Positions 27,225 through 37,981 of a stretch of DNA of 44,288 bases are shown piece by piece. This DNA comes from Leptolyngbya sp. Prado105 (GTDB lineage: Bacteria > Cyanobacteriota > Cyanobacteriia > Leptolyngbyales > Leptolyngbyaceae), in assembly GCA_025454375.1 (NCBI GenBank), contig JALOOO010000012.1, positions 1 to 44,288 on the forward strand. Direction: 5' to 3'. The notes beneath the pieces are model-generated. The model made no database searches and was not told the origin of the DNA. It saw nothing but the letters and a program-made list of their open reading frames with translations. Every line of letters starts with the position of its first letter. Position 1 is the stretch's first letter. A program made the translations under genes and the position numbers.

Positions 27225-28220
27225 ATGGTCAAATCCTATTCCAGCCTGCATCCTCACCGACTCTTGCTTCGCCTGATTCATCAGCGTTTGACGGGATGCC
27301 TAAAGGTTGAAACAAGTATCGCGGACTGGTCAATCTACTTCAGCAAAGGCGAACTCACTTTCGCAACGAGTTCACTTAGCCCTTTTGAGAGACTCGATCG
27401 ACATTTAGGACGGCTGAGTCAGCATGTCCCGGTTCTGGGCGGATCAATGCGCGCTCAGATTCGGGCATTGTTCGATCGTAAATTGCTGAGCGATCACAGC
27501 CGCATCAGTCCCGACTATCAAGCGATTTTGAGACTCGTCGAACAGCGATATCTCTCGGTTGGAGAAGCTCAACAACTGATTGAACAACTCGCGCAAGAAG
27601 TTCTCACCGGATTTCTGATGCTGTATGAAGGGGAAACAGAAGTGATCGAACGCGCAAAGTTTGACCCCTATCCGGAGCTTTGCCGCATTGAGTTACTGCC
27701 GCTCCTTGCCCAGCGCTATCAACCTGCACGGACGACTGCAACGCTGGCACGTGAGAACCGATTTGTCGATCGAGCGGTTGCGGTTGCACCTGTTATGGAG
27801 CGTCCCGTTCAAACGCTAGAAGTAATTCCGCAGCCGATACCAACCTTCGCGCGATCGTACAAAATCGTTTGCATTGATGATAGTCCTTCCATTCTGCAAG
27901 CGATTCGGAACTATCTAGACGAGCAATTTACAGTCTTGATGTTGCATGATCCGCTCAAAGCAGTGATGCAGATTATGCGGCAAAAACCGGACTTAATTCT
28001 GCTTGATGTTGGAATGCCAAACCTCGACGGGTATGAGCTTTGCTCGATGCTAAGACGACATCCTAGCTTTCAAGAAACGCCGATCATTATGGTCACAGGA
28101 CATACCGGATTTATCGATCGAGCGAGAGCGAAACTGGTGGGAGCATCTGGATATCTCACCAAACCCTTTACACAAGCTGAGTTACTTGAGACCGTTGCAA
28201 AGTATCTCCCGGTCATTTAG
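27225..28220 (+). CDS. pixG: PatA/PixG-type response regulator (PATAN domain + receiver)
   Basis: 331 aa as open here. The N-terminal PATAN/DUF4388 region (about 10-160; LTGCLKVETSIADWSIYFSKGELTFA) is followed by a linker and a C-terminal receiver (about 211-330) with the acidic pair CIDDSP, phospho-acceptor Asp261 in LLDVGMPNLDG, VTGH and LTKPF. In phototaxis systems this regulator is the output to type IV pili, phosphorylated by the CheA-like kinase. The start is problematic: PatA-family proteins begin with MKTL and an RY-x5-Q pattern, and such a start (MKTLRAMIQRYGQILFQ) is present at 27194 in another frame, ending at a stop near 27307. The natural N-terminus is probably frameshifted, and ATG 27225 lacks a Shine-Dalgarno. 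First gene of the operon, 20 bp before pixH. Confidence 0.85.
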   Translation: MVKSYSSLHPHRLLLRLIHQRLTGCLKVETSIADWSIYFSKGELTFATSSLSPFERLDRHLGRLSQHVPVLGGSMRAQIRALFDRKLLSDHSRISPDYQAILRLVEQRYLSVGEAQQLIEQLAQEVLTGFLMLYEGETEVIERAKFDPYPELCRIELLPLLAQRYQPARTTATLARENRFVDRAVAVAPVMERPVQTLEVIPQPIPTFARSYKIVCIDDSPSILQAIRNYLDEQFTVLMLHDPLKAVMQIMRQKPDLILLDVGMPNLDGYELCSMLRRHPSFQETPIIMVTGHTGFIDRARAKLVGASGYLTKPFTQAELLETVAKYLPVI

Positions 28221-28240: not shown

Positions 28241-28606
28241 ATGATGAGTACCGTTTTAATTGTTGAAGACACCCCATCCGAGCTTGAGCTACTCAGTCAC
28301 TATCTGCAAGAGAGCGGTTATGTTGTAATTGAAGCGGTGAGTGCAAAAGAAGCCCTCGATCGTGTAGCAGAACAGAGACCAGATGTGGTGGTGACCGATG
28401 TGGTGATGCCTGGAATGAGTGGCTTTGCACTTTGCCGCGCCTTGAAAAAGCATCCAGTCACCGAAGACGTTCCGATTATCATTTGCACCTCAAAGAACCA
28501 AGACATCGATCGACTTTGGGGCATGAAGCAGGGTGCAGATGTCTACATCACGAAACCCTTCACTCGCGATCAGTTTATCCGTGCTGTTCAATCTGTAGGA
28601 GGCTGA
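28241..28606 (+). CDS. pixH: CheY-like single-domain response regulator (PixH-like)
   Basis: 121-aa stand-alone receiver: VEDTPSE (acidic pocket), phospho-acceptor Asp53 in VVTDVVMPGMSG, ICTSKNQD (switch Thr/Ser) and YITKPF (Lys). There is no output domain. In Synechocystis the PixH/PilH-type regulator acts beside PixG/PilG as a counter-acting or phosphate-sink CheY. ATG ATG at 28241/28244 leaves the exact start open. It lies 20 bp after the PATAN regulator and 4 bp before the CheW-like gene. Confidence 0.93.
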   Translation: MMSTVLIVEDTPSELELLSHYLQESGYVVIEAVSAKEALDRVAEQRPDVVVTDVVMPGMSGFALCRALKKHPVTEDVPIIICTSKNQDIDRLWGMKQGADVYITKPFTRDQFIRAVQSVGG

Positions 28607-28610
28607 CGAT

Positions 28611-29111
28611 ATGCAAAGTTCAGCGATTACCCTCCGCCCAGTCCCAGAGCGTTTGGGGCAGGTCTATCTCAAATTTGAACTGAGTGCAAAAATCTCGATC
28701 GTTGTTCCCATGACCTACGTGCGAGAAGCGATCTCGAAGTCGCTGCAACAACTCACGCCTATGCCCGACATGCCCCCCTACGTGCTGGGGCTGATGCACC
28801 GTCAAGGTCAAGTCATGTGGGTACTAGATCTTGCTAAATTGCTAGATATCGGAAGCATTCCAACTCCGATCAATTCTCCACTGGCAACACAGGATCTGCT
28901 CATTTTGCGGGTAGGCTCGGCTGCTTTTGCGATCGCAGTCCAGCAGATTCATGGTTCAATCTGGCTTTCCACAGATGAGATCCAGCCCTCCCTCAGCCAT
29001 ACGACCGCGAGATTTTCGCACTACTTAAGCGGTTGTGTCCTGCAAAGACAGGAAGTGTTGTTTGTGCTTGATGCGGAAGCGATCGTTCAATCTCCGAACT
29101 TGCAATCTTAA
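28611..29111 (+). CDS. pixI: CheW-like coupling protein (PixI-like)
   Basis: 166 aa, one CheW fold: FELSAKISIVVPMTYVREAIS, the RQGQVMWVLDLAKLLDIG strand pair typical of CheW, and LLILRVGSAAFAIAVQQIHG. Its job is to link the methyl-accepting receptor to the CheA-like kinase in the membrane array. It is a little long and divergent, as cyanobacterial PixI/PilI proteins are. It starts 4 bp after pixH, so translation is probably coupled; 58 bp separate it from the receptor gene. Confidence 0.88.
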   Translation: MQSSAITLRPVPERLGQVYLKFELSAKISIVVPMTYVREAISKSLQQLTPMPDMPPYVLGLMHRQGQVMWVLDLAKLLDIGSIPTPINSPLATQDLLILRVGSAAFAIAVQQIHGSIWLSTDEIQPSLSHTTARFSHYLSGCVLQRQEVLFVLDAEAIVQSPNLQS

Positions 29112-29169: not shown

Positions 29170-31932
29170 ATGGTTGATCAATTGTCTTCTACAAATTCAA
29201 GACTGTTCCCGCCTCAATCAACTTACACAGCACCCGATGCTTTACGATCGCGTGCGCGTGGGGTACTGCCCGACTGGCTCAACCGCATGAGCTTAAAGCA
29301 AAAGACTGCGCTTTCTGCCGTTGCGCTGAGTACGGTTCCAATTGCTGCGATGGGAGCCATTAGCTACTTCCTTGCAGATCAAGCGATTACCCAACAGGTG
29401 ACCGGAGCGCAGCAGCTTGCAGCGACGCAATTGAGTGATTTGATCAGTCGATATATGTCCCAGCGTTATGGCGAAGTGCAAGCCTTGGGAAATTTCCCGT
29501 TGCTGACTGAAACGACTGCGCGCAACGCATCTAGTCAAGCTGAAAAGAATGCCGCGCTCACCCGCATTGCGCAAGCCTATGGCAGCTATCGCGATGTTAC
29601 AATTTTTGACCTAGATGGCAATGTTCTTGTTCAAGCGGGCGATCGCACTCATACTAATCAAGCAGGTCAAGCTTACTTTAGAGAAGCGGTTCGCAGTAAT
29701 CGAGCCGGAATTAGCCAGCCGATCGTCAGTTCAGACAGTAAACAGTCAGAGGTGTTTATTACCGCTCCAGTGCGAGACAGTCAAACCGGAAGAACGATCG
29801 CAATTGTCCGAGCGACCTTGCCGCTTGAGAAACTGTCTGAGCATTTAGTCCCCTATACACTGATCGGGCGGGAGTATAGCTTAATCGACCCGGCAACAAA
29901 TCGCATCATTCTCACCTCTCGCCCAGAGCGGTTTAATCAAGAAGCACCTGCGTCGTTCCCTGAGTTCTCAAAGATGCAGTCTGAGGCAAAGGTGACTACG
30001 CGATCGCTCAATGACTCACAAGGCACTTACATTTTCACCTACAGTCCCTGGACAAAGCTTGACAGTTTGCCAGAGTTAAACTGGCATTTGATGTTAGGAA
30101 ACAACGCGGCTAATGCTTTTGCAGCAAGAAGAACCCTGCTGATTGCATTAGCGGCAAGTAGTGTGATTGCTGCGGTGATTGTCGGTTGGATTGCAGCCAT
30201 GCTTGCAAACCGCTTAACTCGTCGAATCGTTTCCGTTGCAAAAGCCGTTCAGCGGATTGGGCAGGGGCAGTTGGATACGAGATTGCGCATGGTTGGCGAT
30301 GATGAGATTACACTGCTCGGTAGCAATATCAACTACATGGCAGGTCAACTTCAGAAACTCATCTTTGAGCAGACCCAGACTTCGCAGAACTTACAGCGAT
30401 TGAATGAGGCAACCTTTAACATTCGCAAAACGTTAGATTCTAATATGATTTTGCAAGCTGGGGTGAGTGAAGTTCGCAAACTGATTGATGTCGATCGCTC
30501 GATTGTGTATTTATTCGACGAACACTGGCGAGGGCATATTGCAGCCGAGTCGGTTGGATTAGAGTTTCCGGCAGCACTAGGAACTCGGATTACTGATCCC
30601 TGCTTTGGAGATCGCTTCATTGAGAAGTATCGCAAAGGTCACGTTCAGACGATTTCAAATATTGAAGATGCAGAGCTTGACCCTTGCTATCAAGGACAGC
30701 TTGAGGAATTTCAGGTAAAAGCGAACATTATTGCTCCCATGATTGTAGACGGCAACCTGATTGGGCTACTCGTCGGACATCATTGCACCTCTGCACACTA
30801 CTGGGAATCTTGGGAGATCAACTTATTCACCCAGATTGCGGTGCATTTGGGCAATGCGCTAGAGCAGGTGAAACTCTCCGAGCAACAGCAGCGAGTCAGT
30901 AGTATTCAAGCGCTGGCTGAAGAACGTCAGCAGACGCAAGAAGCCTTACAAACTCAACTGTTACAGCTTCTTCGCCATGTCGAACGCGCCGCAATGGGAG
31001 ACTTGACCGTCCGAGCAGATGTAACAACGGGTGAAATTGGCACCGTTGCCGACTTCTTTAACTCGATCGTGGAAAATCTCCAGCATTTAGTCGGTCAAGT
31101 TAAAGCGGCATCACTCCAGGTGAATTCTTCTTTGGGCAGTCACGAATATGCGGTACGAGAACTCGCCCATGATGCCTTAAAACAAGCTGAGGAAACTTCT
31201 GCAACGGTTCAATCTGTGCAGAAGATGATGGAATCGATCGAAGCCGTTGCTCAGAGCGCTCAGAAAGCCGCAGAAGTGAGTCGAACTGCCGCCGTCACCG
31301 CAGAAACAGGCGGAGCAGCGATAGATTTGACCGTACAGCAGACCCTAGGCTTGCGGCATACGATCGGCGATACTGCGAAGAAGGTCAAGCGGCTTGGAGA
31401 ATCGTCGCAGCAAATTTCTAAAGCCGTTTCGTTGATCAACCAGATTACGGTACAGACGAATCTCCTCGCGATCAATGCTGGGATTGAAGCAGCACGGGCG
31501 GGAGATGACAGTCAAGGGTTTGCTGCGATCGCGGAAGAGGTCGCAGCATTAGCCGCGCGAGCAGCCGATGCAACCCACGAGATCGAACAGTTAGTTGCTG
31601 GGATTCAGAGAGAGACTAATGATGTCGTAGACGCAATGGAAGAGGGGACATCGCAGGTGGTTGAAGTGACGCACTATGTCGAGAATGCGAAGCAGAGCTT
31701 AGAGCAGATCGTCTCGGTGTCTCACCAAATTGATCAACTGGTGCAATCAATTTCGACCGCAACAGTTTCGCAGGTTGAGACTTCTCATACGATTACGAAC
31801 TTGATGCAGGACATTGCTCAAATTGCAGAGCGTACTTCTGATTCGTCGATCGAAGTCTCCAACTCTCTGCGGAAGACGGTTAACATCGCCCAGGATCTTC
31901 AACAATCCGTTGGGACATTCAAGGTGAGCTAA
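29170..31932 (+). CDS. pixJ: Phototaxis receptor: Cache-like sensor, HAMP, DXCF cyanobacteriochrome GAF, MCP (PixJ-like)
   Basis: 920-aa membrane receptor. TM1 is about 46-69 and TM2 about 322-347; the ~250 residues between them look like an extracytoplasmic double-Cache region ([44 protein letters not shown]). HAMP ~348-400, GAF ~425-565, second HAMP ~595-650, and a methyl-accepting signalling domain whose tip is [20 protein letters not shown]. The GAF has a DPCF motif (Cys478) and a second Cys506 in DPCYQGQ, 28 residues apart as in TePixJ (Cys494/Cys522). That marks a DXCF cyanobacteriochrome, normally binding phycoviolobilin and switching blue/green. Cys506 is followed by Tyr where most have His. 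Bilin binding is inferred. Together with CheW and CheA it should steer type IV pili. Confidence 0.9.
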
Positions 31933-32073: not shown

Positions 32074-34770
32074 ATGCCAAACGACAAGGAAAATGAGATT
32101 CGGCGGCAGTTTCTAGATGAAGCACAGGAATACATTGCTAGCTTAGAAGCTGCAATTCTAGAGATCTCTCAAACTATCAATATTGCGACCATTAATGCTG
32201 CACTTCGAGTGACACATTCCTTAAAAGGGGGTGCGGCAATGATGGGCTTCAAGCTTCTAAGCGAGTTAGCCCATCAGCTAGAAGATGCGCTAAAAGTTCT
32301 CAAGGTCAATGATACTGCACTAGATTCTGAGACAGGGCATCTATTACTCTTGGCGGTAAGCTGTCTTTACCAAATTGTGGACTTTGAGCGCTATGGCGAA
32401 GCGATTAATCCGACCTGGATTAGTAAAGAAGTCGAACCGATTTTTACTGGATTACGATCGCGTTTAGGCAATTCTCAAGAAGAAACAGCGGCTTCAGTGT
32501 TGTCGATCGACAATAATCAAGATCTCGTTCCACTATTGTTTGAGACAGAGGTCGAGGGCTGTCTACAACGACTTGAGACGGTGCTTGCGACCCCAAACCA
32601 GCCTTGCCTACGTGAAGAAGCAACTCTACTTGCACAAGAGCTAGGGGGGCTAGGCGAGATGCTACAACTGCATGATTTTGCCCAACTTTGTGACACGATC
32701 GCTCGGCAAATCGCAGCCTCTCCTGATACGATTCTCATCCCTGTGACCCGTGCTGCATTACAAACTTGGCGACGCGCGCAAACTTTAATCTTGAGCGGAC
32801 AGCTTGATCAAATTCCGCTAGAAATGGACGCGATCGAGATCACGCCAACAGTTTCGGCACAAGTTATTCAGACAATTTCCTCCACTTCAGAAGTCGAAGA
32901 CACCAATCAAACGGTAAGAGTTTCTCTCCGGCAATTGAATCGTTTACAAGATTTATTTGGTGAACTAACTATCGATCGCAATGGATTAGATCTCAATCTC
33001 AAACGACTCAGAGGGTTAACTCGTCAGCTTTCTCAGCGACTTCAGACTCTACAGCATGTCAATTACCAGTTAAGAACTGTTTATGATCGCGTTGCCTTAA
33101 CTAATGCTCCTGTTGCAGTCGGTCGAACAAAAAGGAGTAAGTTTGCGATTCCGACTGAGTTTGATCTTCTTGAGATGGATCAGTACACAGATATTCATCT
33201 TCTTTCTCAGCAAGTGATTGAGACGATCGTGCAATTGCAGGAAGTTGCAGACGATTTGAGCTTAGGATTAGACGACACAGAGCAGAATGCTAGAAATCTC
33301 ACAAAATCTTCTAAGCAATTGCAGTCGGGATTTACACGCTTAAAGATGCGACCTTTCTCAGAATTAGTCGATCGATTTCCACGGGCTTTACATGACTGGT
33401 GTGTTGAATATAGCAAGCAAGCCAAATTAGCAATCTCAGGCGAATCGATTCTGCTCGATCGCAGTGTGCTAGAAACCTTACAAGATCCATTGATGCACCT
33501 CCTGCGAAATGCGTTTGATCACGGCATTGAAGCGCCTTTAACTCGCATTGAGCAAGGCAAACCACCCGAAGGCAAAATTGAGATCCAAGCTTCTCAACAA
33601 GGCAATCGCACTGTGATTACCGTCCGAGATGATGGAGAAGGGATTGCGATCGCAAAAATTCGCGATCGTGCGGCTCAGATTGGGTTAGATCCTGCTCTTT
33701 TAGAAGCAGCGAGTGAGACAGAGTTACTGTCTTTGATTTTTGAACCTGGGTTTAGCACGAGCGATCAGGTGACTGAGCTTTCAGGTCGCGGAGTGGGGAT
33801 GGATGTCGTTCGCACGCATTTACAACAAATCCGAGGCGAGATTACGATTAGTACTGAAGTTGGCGTGGGCACAACCTTTACGCTATCCGTTCCGGTTACA
33901 CTTTCGACTGTCCGAGTTGTCCTCGCTGAGAGTCATGGAATGCTCTTGGCGATTCCCAGCGATGCGATCGCGGAAGTGACAATTTTTGAGCCGCATTGTG
34001 TAATTCAAACAGGACTAGGAGAAGCGATCGACTATCAGGGACAGCCGATCTCTCTGATTCGATTACAGAACCATCTCAGCTTTAACTGTGTCCGGGCAAG
34101 ACATAGCTATGAAACTCCGCCAATGCTGCAATCTGAGAGTGTGGTGATCATCGAGCAAGGCGGAAAACGGACAGCCCTGCAAGTCGATCGCTGCTGGACA
34201 GATCAAGAAGTAACCGTGCGATCGCTGTCGAGCTTTTTGCCGTTGCCGTCTGGATTTAATGGCTGTGCGATTCTAGGAGATGGGCGGGTTGTGCCGTTAG
34301 TCAACGTACCAGAATTCTTGCATCAAATTACGACTCCACCGAGCGATCAGCCTTCTCTGCCCAAATTATTGAGTGCTGCCACAAGTGTTGCATTGCCAAC
34401 GGTTCCAAGTGTGCTAGTCGTCGATGATTCGATCAATGTACGGCGATTTTTGGCTCTCACGCTGTCGCGATCAGGCTATCAAGTCGAAGAGGCAAAAGAT
34501 GGACAAGATGCGATCGAGCAGTTGGAAGCGGGTTTAGCCGTGCAAGCGATCGTCTGTGACATTGAGATGCCAAGGCTAGATGGATTTGGATTGCTGACGA
34601 AGCTCAGAGCAAATCAGAAGTTCAACCATATTCCAGTCACTATGTTGACTTCTCGAAGTGGGGATAAGCATCGACAGTTAGCGAATCAGCTTGGGGCAGC
34701 AGCTTATTTCTCAAAGCCTTACAATGAGCAGGTGTTGTTGCAGACGTTGGATCAGTTGATTCATGCGTGA
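32074..34770 (+). CDS. pixL: Hybrid CheA-like histidine kinase (PixL-like)
   Basis: 898 aa. HPt domain at the N-terminus with phosphorylatable His48 in VTHSLKGGAAMMG; a long spacer; dimerisation/linker (about 290-430); HATPase with N box LMHLLRNAFDHGIEA, G1 VRDDGEGI and G2 GRGVGMDVV; a CheW-like regulatory domain (about 610-740); and a C-terminal receiver from ~778 with VVDDSINVRR, phospho-acceptor Asp829 in VCDIEMPRLDG and FSKPY. This CheA-REC layout is that of PixL/PilL. It would take signals from the receptor and phosphorylate the PATAN and CheY-like regulators; the attached receiver may be a sink or adaptation device. Last gene of the operon, 141 bp after the receptor. Confidence 0.94.
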   Translation: MPNDKENEIRRQFLDEAQEYIASLEAAILEISQTINIATINAALRVTHSLKGGAAMMGFKLLSELAHQLEDALKVLKVNDTALDSETGHLLLLAVSCLYQIVDFERYGEAINPTWISKEVEPIFTGLRSRLGNSQEETAASVLSIDNNQDLVPLLFETEVEGCLQRLETVLATPNQPCLREEATLLAQELGGLGEMLQLHDFAQLCDTIARQIAASPDTILIPVTRAALQTWRRAQTLILSGQLDQIPLEMDAIEITPTVSAQVIQTISSTSEVEDTNQTVRVSLRQLNRLQDLFGELTIDRNGLDLNLKRLRGLTRQLSQRLQTLQHVNYQLRTVYDRVALTNAPVAVGRTKRSKFAIPTEFDLLEMDQYTDIHLLSQQVIETIVQLQEVADDLSLGLDDTEQNARNLTKSSKQLQSGFTRLKMRPFSELVDRFPRALHDWCVEYSKQAKLAISGESILLDRSVLETLQDPLMHLLRNAFDHGIEAPLTRIEQGKPPEGKIEIQASQQGNRTVITVRDDGEGIAIAKIRDRAAQIGLDPALLEAASETELLSLIFEPGFSTSDQVTELSGRGVGMDVVRTHLQQIRGEITISTEVGVGTTFTLSVPVTLSTVRVVLAESHGMLLAIPSDAIAEVTIFEPHCVIQTGLGEAIDYQGQPISLIRLQNHLSFNCVRARHSYETPPMLQSESVVIIEQGGKRTALQVDRCWTDQEVTVRSLSSFLPLPSGFNGCAILGDGRVVPLVNVPEFLHQITTPPSDQPSLPKLLSAATSVALPTVPSVLVVDDSINVRRFLALTLSRSGYQVEEAKDGQDAIEQLEAGLAVQAIVCDIEMPRLDGFGLLTKLRANQKFNHIPVTMLTSRSGDKHRQLANQLGAAAYFSKPYNEQVLLQTLDQLIHA

Positions 34771-35046: not shown

Positions 35047-35796
35047 ATGAGTACCACCACGAGCAACCCTCCTATCTCCAACGAAGTTGCTTTGAGAATC
35101 GCTTTAGCAGCTAGAGTCTTACCCGAAATCTCAATCGCAGAATTGATTGAAGCCATTCAAGATAGTGTTGGCGAAGATCTCAGCGAAACCTCACTCAGCC
35201 GCATTACCGTCACCAACTTAAAAACAGCCTTTGGACAAACTTACGATATTGATGGCGAAGAAGACGGCGAAGATGCGAATGCGGGAGACATTGCTGCATT
35301 AAAAGAAGCCGTGCGCATCCTTTGGGGCGCAAAAGATGAAACCGAGGGACTTCCCCCAATCGAACCCTACCAAGAAGGCGAGATGCCCCAGTCCGTCCGG
35401 ATTGCTGTCGCCTCAAACAATCGCGAACGGCTCGACGGTCATTTTGGGTCTTGTTTGCGCTACTTGATCTATCAGCTTTCGGCAACGGATTTGAAACTGG
35501 TCGATATTCGATCGGCATTAGAAGCAGATCTGTCAGACGATCGCAATCGGTTTCGACTGAATTTGATTCGAGATTGCCATGTGGTGTACATTGTCTCAAT
35601 CGGCGGACCTGCGGCGGCAAAGGTCGTTCAAGCGAGTATCTATCCGATGAAAATTCTAGAAGGTGGAGAAGCAAGAGCAATTCTAACTGACCTCCAAAAA
35701 GTGATTGCAACAGCGCCACCCCCCTGGATGGCAAAAGTACTAGGCATCGCAGAGAGCAATCGCGTGAAGAACTACAAAGCGACTGAAGCCCTGTAA
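35047..35796 (+). CDS. NifX/NafY-like dinitrogenase cofactor-binding-domain protein
   Basis: 249 aa. The N-terminal ~65 residues (ALRIALAARVLPEISIAELIEAIQ) resemble the helical N-domain of NafY. After an acidic linker (GEEDGEDAN) comes a NifX/NifB-C-type domain (about 117-230): VRIAVASNNRERLDGHFGSC, then YLIYQLSATDLKLVDIR and HVVYIVSIGGPAAAKVVQASIYPMK. Family members carry FeMo-co or its NifB precursor. The HFGSC segment keeps His and Cys as possible ligands. No nif gene is nearby, so it may serve a distant nif cluster or have another metal-cofactor role. A 276-bp upstream gap with no visible motif precedes it; it converges on the kinase gene. Confidence 0.85.
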   Translation: MSTTTSNPPISNEVALRIALAARVLPEISIAELIEAIQDSVGEDLSETSLSRITVTNLKTAFGQTYDIDGEEDGEDANAGDIAALKEAVRILWGAKDETEGLPPIEPYQEGEMPQSVRIAVASNNRERLDGHFGSCLRYLIYQLSATDLKLVDIRSALEADLSDDRNRFRLNLIRDCHVVYIVSIGGPAAAKVVQASIYPMKILEGGEARAILTDLQKVIATAPPPWMAKVLGIAESNRVKNYKATEAL

Positions 35797-35805
35797 AACA
35801 ATTGC

Positions 35806-35832
35806 ACTTGGGTGGTTTCTAGCTGCCCAAGT
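35806..35832. terminator. Hairpin at a convergent junction
   Basis: ACTTGGG (35806-35812) and CCCAAGT (35826-35832) form a 7-bp stem that overlaps the minus-strand kinase stop codon at 35819-35821. It could terminate both convergent transcripts, though there is no T run. Confidence 0.35.
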
Positions 35833-37300
35833 TGACCATCTTGCGAACAGATATCGGAACCTCGATCGTCAATTCAGTCCCTTTACTGACTTCTGATACG
35901 CAAGACAACGAACCCTGGTGTTGTCCAACCACAATTTGATGCGCGATCGACAATCCTAATCCCGTTCCCTGACCAATTGGTTTTGTGGTGAAAAAGGGAT
36001 CGAAAATTTTAGACAGCACTGACTCTGGAATTCCTTTACCACTATCACGAATTCTTATGATCACAGAGGAAGGTGTCGCCTCCGTTGCAATCCAAATTAT
36101 CCCTGAGTAAGTCGCATCTTCTAAAGCCTCGATCGCATTGCTCAAAATGCTCAAAAAAACTTGATTGAGTTGCCCCGCATAACATTCAACTTTTGGTAAT
36201 GGAGGAAAATCTTTAATGACTTGAATCGTTGAACGGCTTTTTGTGTGCTTTAGGCGATGCTGCAATAGTAAAAGCGTATTTTCTAATCCATCTTGTAAAT
36301 CAACTCGCTTCAATTGTGCTTCATCAAGCCGCGAAAAATTGCGCAGACTGAGTACGATCGCTTGAATTCGATTCGCCCCCTCCTGCATCGAGCCTAGTAA
36401 CTTTGGCAGATCAATCACAATAAATTCAAAATCGCACTTCTCAATGTACTCCTGAATCTCAGGAATGCTCTTTGAACAATGCTGCTGATAGAGGTCAATC
36501 AAGGTCATCAGTTCCGCAAGATACTTTTCAATATGCGTGATATTGCCTGAGATAAACGTTATCGGATTATTGATTTCATGGGCAATTCCTGCCACCATCT
36601 GACCTAAGCTTGACATCTTTTCAGTCTGCAACATCTGAGCCTGTGCCATCTGTAAAGTCTTCAGAGCGGCTGATAGCTTTTCGGTTCGTTCATCGACTCG
36701 TTGCTCAAGTTCTGCATTCGTCTGCTCAAGTGCAATAAATGAAGCTTGCAATTGCTCGACCATGCTGTTAAACGATCGAGCGAGTGTAGCGAATTCATCA
36801 ATTCTGGAGATCTGCACCGTTTGATTGAGATCCCCTTGCGCAATGGCAGAGGAAGCTCGATTTAAGCGATGAATCGATCGAGCAATCCAACGGACTTGAA
36901 ATGATCCCAGGTAAGTTGTAATGACTAAAGCAATGACACAAAGTAAAATCGTCGTCTTTGCATTTTGATTGATCTGCTGAGTAAAGTCAGACTCTGGAAT
37001 TGCCACGACAACTAACCAATCTAACCCATAGCGATCCTGCCAGGGAGTGACTTGAACGAATGAAGTCTGATGATTCAGCCGTAGTTTCAGGTCTTGTCCG
37101 TCTCGGATTTGCTTGAGATCCCCAAACTTTTGAATTAACTGCTGCGTCGCCGCTCGAATGACTGGATTACTGCTTTGTAATCCGTTAATCCGTTGAGGCT
37201 CATTGTTCTGAATACTGTAGGTCTTTGCTTCAGTTGAGTTGGCAACGAGTAATCCATCTCGTTCTAAAATAAATACGATCGCAGAGGAACTCGGACGCAA
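35819..37300 (-). CDS. Sensor histidine kinase, C-terminal part of a stop-interrupted gene
   Basis: 493 aa from a TTG at 37300, the first possible start after an in-frame TAG. It begins in the middle of a double-Cache sensor (SSAIVFILERDGLLVAN, then LDWLVVVAIPESDF), followed by a TM helix (114-134), HAMP (135-190), a coiled coil, a HisKA-type domain with His241 in AHEINNPITF, and HATPase_c with N box ILSNAIEAL, G1 DSGKGIP and G2 GTGLGLSI. The continuous frame with the N-terminal part (37307-37981) shows one ancestral ~720-aa kinase. The kinase module itself is complete, but without the N-terminal half the sensor domain and first TM helix are missing. No receiver or paired regulator is adjacent. 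Confidence 0.8.
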   Translation of the reverse strand: MRPSSSAIVFILERDGLLVANSTEAKTYSIQNNEPQRINGLQSSNPVIRAATQQLIQKFGDLKQIRDGQDLKLRLNHQTSFVQVTPWQDRYGLDWLVVVAIPESDFTQQINQNAKTTILLCVIALVITTYLGSFQVRWIARSIHRLNRASSAIAQGDLNQTVQISRIDEFATLARSFNSMVEQLQASFIALEQTNAELEQRVDERTEKLSAALKTLQMAQAQMLQTEKMSSLGQMVAGIAHEINNPITFISGNITHIEKYLAELMTLIDLYQQHCSKSIPEIQEYIEKCDFEFIVIDLPKLLGSMQEGANRIQAIVLSLRNFSRLDEAQLKRVDLQDGLENTLLLLQHRLKHTKSRSTIQVIKDFPPLPKVECYAGQLNQVFLSILSNAIEALEDATYSGIIWIATEATPSSVIIRIRDSGKGIPESVLSKIFDPFFTTKPIGQGTGLGLSIAHQIVVGQHQGSLSCVSEVSKGTELTIEVPISVRKMVNLGS

Positions 37301-37306
37301 TTTACT

Positions 37307-37981
37307 CTAAAATTCACTAATTCGATGCAGTAAGTAATCGATTCCTACAACACCGATCACCTGATTGCCCTGAATTACAGGATGACTCGACGAAATTGCC
37401 AGCACTTTATCATCATTCCAAAAGTAAATGCTCGTCCAAAGAGGTTTTCTCGCTTTGACTGGATCGGTATACCAGACCTCTTTAAGAGGTTCATAGGGAA
37501 CTTTGTAGGAAGTAAAAGCCGTAGGTTTTCCGTCTTTGATATCGTAGCGGTAGTAAAAGCCTAGATGCGGTGGCTCGATAATATCCATTTGCAGAATGTT
37601 TCGATGATCGCGATTAATCCCGATAAACTTGCCCTGCTGATCTGCAAAATTGATAAATGCAAATTCTGGATGCGCTCGCATCTGTTCCCAGAAGTAATGT
37701 CCGAGTCTGCGAAGATCTCTTGAGAGTAGCCCACTTTCAATGCTACGTGCATTCACTTGATTAATTTGATGCGGAATTGCAAGGTAGCTATCTAAATGCT
37801 GATCCACTCGTTTACTGGATTCGTCGTTGAGTTGGGTTACTAATTGCTCGATCGCAACTTGTCCATGTCGGAGTGATCCATACCCTGTTAGACCAACTGC
37901 AAGAAAAATTTGCGTTATGAAGGGCACAACAAGCACTTGACTCAGCGATATTCTTGGAAATCTGCGGAGAATTTTCATCAC
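37307..37981 (-). CDS. N-terminal sensor part of the stop-interrupted histidine kinase
   Basis: 224 aa ending at TAG 37309-37307. It has one N-terminal TM helix (about 14-36, LSQVLVVPFITQIFLAVGLTG) and the membrane-distal half of a dCache domain (FAFINFADQQGKFIGINRD; FYYRYDIKDGKP; VWYTDPVKARKPLWTSIYFWND; SSHPVIQGNQVIGVVGIDYLLHRIS). The last residues are where intact relatives continue directly into the second Cache lobe and HAMP, which here lie downstream in the same frame. The stop is thus probably a nonsense mutation (one base from TTG or CAG). It follows the rhodanese gene by 58 bp and may share its transcript. Confidence 0.75.
   Translation of the reverse strand: MMKILRRFPRISLSQVLVVPFITQIFLAVGLTGYGSLRHGQVAIEQLVTQLNDESSKRVDQHLDSYLAIPHQINQVNARSIESGLLSRDLRRLGHYFWEQMRAHPEFAFINFADQQGKFIGINRDHRNILQMDIIEPPHLGFYYRYDIKDGKPTAFTSYKVPYEPLKEVWYTDPVKARKPLWTSIYFWNDDKVLAISSSHPVIQGNQVIGVVGIDYLLHRISEF

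Follow-up and report, generated by a model that had tools for sequence, protein, structure and literature searches.

A PixJ-type receptor of Leptolyngbya sp. Prado105 that carries a dCache domain ahead of a DXCF cyanobacteriochrome GAF and probably has two inputs

The gene that we analysed here lies in a window of 44,288 nucleotides (the entire stretch of DNA under study, a contig of Leptolyngbya sp. Prado105). The initial annotation read it as a phototaxis receptor in which an extracytoplasmic, Cache-like ligand sensor is joined to a DXCF-type cyanobacteriochrome (CBCR), and set it apart from the known PixJ proteins. This raises the questions whether a single receptor might combine a chemical and a light signal and whether such a receptor is new.

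The anatomy given in the initial annotation is right. The reading frame of the receptor is intact, and Pfam searches and hydropathy gave the order TM1, dCache_1, TM2, HAMP, GAF and MCP (Table 1). Hydropathy revealed exactly two transmembrane peaks, thus residues ~70–322 are extracytoplasmic, and the double Cache domain located between the two helices scores above the Pfam cut-off of 45 bits. The GAF domain contains both the DXCF motif and the canonical cysteine and has TePixJ (3vv4) as its closest PDB match, and the MCP output domain was likewise recovered. Orthologues with 78–89% identity have kept the same features, showing that these are not due to chance. A scan of contigs for relatives yielded one true relative (L001), while two further matches (L002 and L003) were unrelated.

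Table 1. Positions in the window of the receptor, its parts and the neighbouring operon genes.
Feature	Position	Strand	Details
PixG/PilG-type response regulator, DUF4388 (PATAN-region domain) and receiver	27225..28220	+	Pfam DUF4388 41.3 bits, Response_reg 94.5 bits
PixH/PilH-type single receiver	28241..28606	+	Pfam Response_reg 104.4 bits
PixI/PilI-type CheW	28611..29111	+	Pfam CheW 84.2 bits
Receptor (PixJ-type MCP), 920 aa	29170..31932	+	ATG start, no internal stop, ORF intact
TM helix 1, residues 51–69	29320..29376	+	Kyte-Doolittle peak 1.74
dCache_1, extracytoplasmic, residues 71–291	29380..30042	+	Pfam 71.8 bits, E 8.3e-20
TM helix 2, residues 323–341	30136..30192	+	Kyte-Doolittle peak 2.53
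HAMP, residues 345–395	30202..30354	+	Pfam 58.3 bits
CBCR GAF, residues 426–564	30445..30861	+	Pfam 62.6 bits; PDB 3vv4 E 4.1e-31
DXCF motif D476-P-C478-F479, second Cys	30595..30606	+	aligned with TePixJ D492-P-C494-F
Canonical bilin Cys C506 in DPCY (504–507), followed by Y507	30679..30690	+	aligned with TePixJ C522-H523
MCP signalling domain (MCPsignal), residues 702–885	31273..31824	+	Pfam 123.2 bits
PixL/PilL-type CheA: Hpt, dimerisation, HATPase, CheW, receiver	32074..34770	+	Pfam

The gene is located in a motility-type che operon. It is the fourth of five consecutive genes (PATAN-REC, REC, CheW, MCP, CheA) and represents the J gene of a complete pixGHIJL-like operon. Four orthologous loci have the same order (in that of L001 the contig ends inside cheA), and so do paralogous loci and that of TePixJ; the PATAN-REC protein is 75–85% identical across the orthologous operons. 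The genome encodes two haem oxygenases, four ferredoxin-bilin reductases, five T2SSE-type ATPases and four CheR-type proteins, thus it has bilin, ATPases for the pilus and a means of methylating MCPs at its disposal. At least five further large MCPs are present in the same genome (L004–L008, on C155, C60, C49, C380 and C75): a paralogue that has just the canonical Cys, a dCache receptor with four GAFs, an orphan MCP whose GAF is degenerate, a further receptor with four GAFs, for which no dCache match was obtained, and a TPR-HAMP-MCP; four of them are placed in pix/pil-like operons. Directly downstream of the cheA gene a NifX/DIMCO_N-type protein is encoded (35047–35796, + strand; Pfam DIMCO_N 106.9 bits, NCBIfam NifX 102.7 bits, slightly below the cut-off of 112). 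It is followed on the opposite strand by a histidine-kinase gene (35819–37981) with one in-frame stop codon, which separates a dCache-like N-terminal half (37310–37981) from a HAMP-HisKA-HATPase part (35822–37300). This gene is probably broken; alternatively, the stop codon is a sequencing error.

The claim that the receptor differs from the known PixJ proteins did not hold, since TePixJ itself has a dCache-HAMP-GAF-MCP layout and lies in an operon of the same order. TePixJ has been described as a protein of 940 residues with TM, HAMP, GAF and MCP regions (PMC6955287). We found a 941-aa stop-to-stop frame (L029/L104) whose GAF shares 100% identity with the TePixJ domain of the crystal structure (PDB 3vv4), and dCache_1 is detected in this protein with 54.8 bits, above the Pfam cut-off. 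Ten other receptors tested, including the four-GAF dCache receptor of the same genome, also exceeded this cut-off, and profile matches to the dCache region occur in 76 of 386 genomes of the cyanobacterial phylum. The survey of Cache-HAMP-CBCR-MCP layouts that had been suggested therefore rules out a rare architecture: it is present in TePixJ and in many other cyanobacterial CBCR-MCPs. The receptor belongs to the TePixJ kind, and its layout is already known. A search of the open-access literature found no paper that links Cache to PixJ or to chemotaxis receptors of the cyanobacteriochrome type; the Cache domain of PixJ has apparently not been discussed.

Structure prediction gave a mixed picture of the proposed Cache fold. 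Two AlphaFold models of the dCache region, each computed from two sequences, with and without the TM helices, were of low confidence (pLDDT 49.6 and 45.0) and their top Foldseek matches reached a TM of about 0.3; however, these matches were overwhelmingly Cache sensor domains, and the order of helices and strands fits a stack of two PAS-like lobes set on a long helix at the N-terminus. Family profiles support a Cache fold: a dCache profile built from 58 relatives matches the solved dCache domains of PctA (E 8e-12, spanning both lobes), KinD (1e-9), PctC, CtaA and TlpA.

Assignment of a ligand by the known dCache motifs was tried, and none of them fits the receptor. The motif of amino acid sensors includes R126, W128 and D173 of PctA (PMC10104139, PMC11245519). 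In our alignment this dCache_1AA motif is absent, with R126 replaced by Q167, W128 by Y169, Y129 by F170 and D173 by T216, and the Asp of the amine sensors (dCache_1AM), which is equivalent to PctA D173, is absent at T216 as well. The Asp of the purine sensors (dCache_1PU), D169 in McpH (PMC11245519), corresponds to T198 in an indirect alignment transferred through PctA A157. Q167, Y169, F170 and T216 are invariant in five orthologues, as is an N-Q-x-x-Q-x-Y-F stretch in the dCache domain. The dN/dS of this domain among the orthologues is 0.08–0.17, a rough value due to saturated dS, and with 67–80% identity it is the least conserved folded domain (GAF 80–88%). The dCache domain is under purifying selection; no ligand can be assigned to it, and there may be none.

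The light-sensing half is conserved more strongly. None of the residues D476, C478, F479, C506 and L511 varies among the five orthologues, and the dN/dS of the GAF domain is 0.04–0.09, again a rough value since dS is saturated. The residues of TePixJ that we take to be D492, C494, R507, C522 and H523 in structure 3vv4 serve as a reference for the bilin pocket. At the position of R507 the receptor has H491; 63 of the 73 two-Cys GAFs have Arg here, and His is confined to the five orthologues. (Residue 491 is encoded at 30640–30642; the orthologues with His are L101, L102, L103 and L062/L001, and among all GAFs of the set with a retained canonical Cys, His instead of the near-invariant Arg occurs nowhere else.) The position of H523 is occupied by Y507, and the two-Cys GAFs have either His (44/73) or Tyr (29/73) at this site. 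The receptor thus lacks the TePixJ-like Arg/His pair, a trait that is typical of the DXCF group but does not define it. DXCF GAFs typically convert PCB into PVB and switch between blue and green (PMC11284453), and for the receptor a blue dark state is our best guess. Because of H491 and Y507 the assignment as blue/green is not certain, and the colour or even the stability of the bilin could differ. H491 is a candidate position for colour tuning; regarding the effect in DXCF GAFs of a Tyr that follows the canonical Cys, a literature search gave nothing decisive.

The history of the two sensors was followed in a tree of 95 dCache-MCPs from which the GAF columns had been excluded; a protein counted as light-competent if one or more of its GAFs had the canonical Cys. 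The tree is a quick, unrooted one in which several branches are long. It shows at least 11 changes of light competence, and the dCache domain stays; proteins were sampled by similarity to the receptor or its dCache domain, hence such counts are not frequencies. One clade of 32 includes a supported group of 26 that has either other residues in place of the cysteines (Y/G, Y/S, Y/A, G/S) or no GAF at all. Two-Cys receptors (L011, L017, L021, L043 and L105) branch outside this group, and the dCache domain is kept in all. This looks like a decay of the light input, a direction that we infer from an unrooted tree. Members of the group are L014–L016, L018, L019, L022, L057, L106–L112, L114–L122 and L140–L142, of dCache-HAMP-MCP type, and its GAF-deleted proteins are about 740–790 aa long. 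The sister groups of the receptor include two-Cys and canonical-only forms.

The DNA itself gives the parts and their order, i.e. the domains, both cysteines, the operon, the close kinship with TePixJ and the genes for bilin and pili. We think it likely that they form a membrane-spanning phototaxis receptor of the PixJ type, with TePixJ architecture, in which light and a second input through the dCache domain would converge on one MCP linked to pilus motility. The cytoplasmic GAF would most likely bind phycocyanobilin at C506, with a reversible second link at C478, and light would isomerise the bilin between a dark state absorbing at short wavelength, presumably blue, and a product at longer wavelength, green to orange. 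The putative second input would most likely come from the extracytoplasmic dCache domain via TM2 and HAMP. Both sensors would act on one MCP tip and thereby tune the neighbouring CheA, whose phosphoryl groups would be passed to the PATAN-REC and REC proteins and bias type IV pilus motility. This proposal is based on the domain set, the alignment of both cysteines with TePixJ 3vv4, the same operon in the TePixJ locus and in four orthologous loci, purifying selection on both sensors, the bilin and T2SSE-type genes of the genome, and the retention of dCache where relatives have lost the light sensor. H491 and Y507, the lack of the amino acid-sensor motif and the low-confidence dCache models speak against it. 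Dual sensing of ligand and light is plausible.

It might also be possible that the receptor senses light only and that the dCache domain is a structural or assembly module, or senses the state of the surface or membrane without a small-molecule ligand. The replaced amino acid-sensor residues and the comparatively low conservation of the domain would agree with this, but its low dN/dS and the invariant N-Q-x-x-Q-x-Y-F stretch do not, and the persistence of dCache in relatives without a light sensor makes most sense if the domain does something; we regard this possibility as rather unlikely. The converse, a chemoreceptor in which the cysteines persist and the bilin is unbound or not photoactive, appears quite improbable. 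Loss of light competence has occurred repeatedly in related clades and H491 and Y507 are specific to this one, yet D476, C478, F479, C506 and L511 are invariant, the GAF has a dN/dS of only 0.04–0.09, and 29 of 73 two-Cys GAFs have a Tyr at the site of Y507.

The output might be a motility response other than phototaxis, e.g. adaptation of photophobotaxis, pilus biogenesis or aggregation. PixJ of P. lacuna is a light-induced down-regulator of photophobotaxis (PMC13383048), and for N. punctiforme PixJ has been reported, as cited in PMC9090330, not to be responsible for phototaxis, thus a role in phototaxis should not be assumed from the architecture. However, loss of the Synechocystis tax1 cluster, which holds pixJ1, turns positive into negative phototaxis (PMC5812497), and PixJ of S. 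elongatus UTEX 3055 has been reported, again as cited in PMC9090330, to be a directional sensor. A different output is in our opinion not very likely, and we favour the PixJ-type phototaxis receptor with two inputs.

Taken on its own, the receptor found in this window is ordinary. Tentatively, and with some doubt, the reading can be extended to PixJ-type receptors in general, including TePixJ: they may be dual-input proteins that combine a putative dCache ligand with light on one MCP, and their light half may have decayed and been deleted in several cyanobacterial lineages, leaving pure chemoreceptors (or the reverse). If the dCache domain binds a ligand, the textbook phototaxis receptor of cyanobacteria would also be a chemoreceptor, and puzzling observations on PixJ, such as phototaxis that is reversed and not lost or the absence of a phenotype in some species, could reflect a chemical input. 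The question of the ligand is directly testable, since the photochemistry of TePixJ is in hand and a dCache domain alone is a standard screening target.

One of the closest known systems is TePixJ of Thermosynechococcus (PDB 3vv4, 4glq and 6p58), which shares dCache_1, HAMP, a single DXCF GAF and MCP as well as the gene order of the locus; it is 40% identical over residues 42–920 of the receptor and differs in the Arg/His pair of the pocket. Synechocystis PixJ1/TaxD1, encoded in the tax1 operon, has two TM helices, a blue/green CBCR GAF, an MCP domain and che genes in common with the receptor but contains two GAF domains (PMC5812497). Within the same genome, the paralogue on C155 (L004) has the dCache-HAMP-GAF-MCP layout in a full operon and is 48% identical over its entire length, but possesses only the canonical Cys and no DXCF Cys, whereas the receptor on C60 (L005) has dCache_1 (48.8 bits) ahead of bilin GAFs and MCP but contains four GAFs, again with the canonical Cys only. 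Chemoreceptors of the PctA/PctC/CtaA type share the extracytoplasmic dCache_1; they lack a CBCR, and their amino acid motif residues are not conserved in the receptor. A precedent for a chemical and a light sensor in one receptor is UirS/SynEtr1 (Slr1212), in which an ethylene domain is combined with a CBCR and which affects phototaxis (PMC5812497, PMC6682694); it differs in being a histidine kinase with an ethylene-binding membrane domain and has neither Cache nor MCP.
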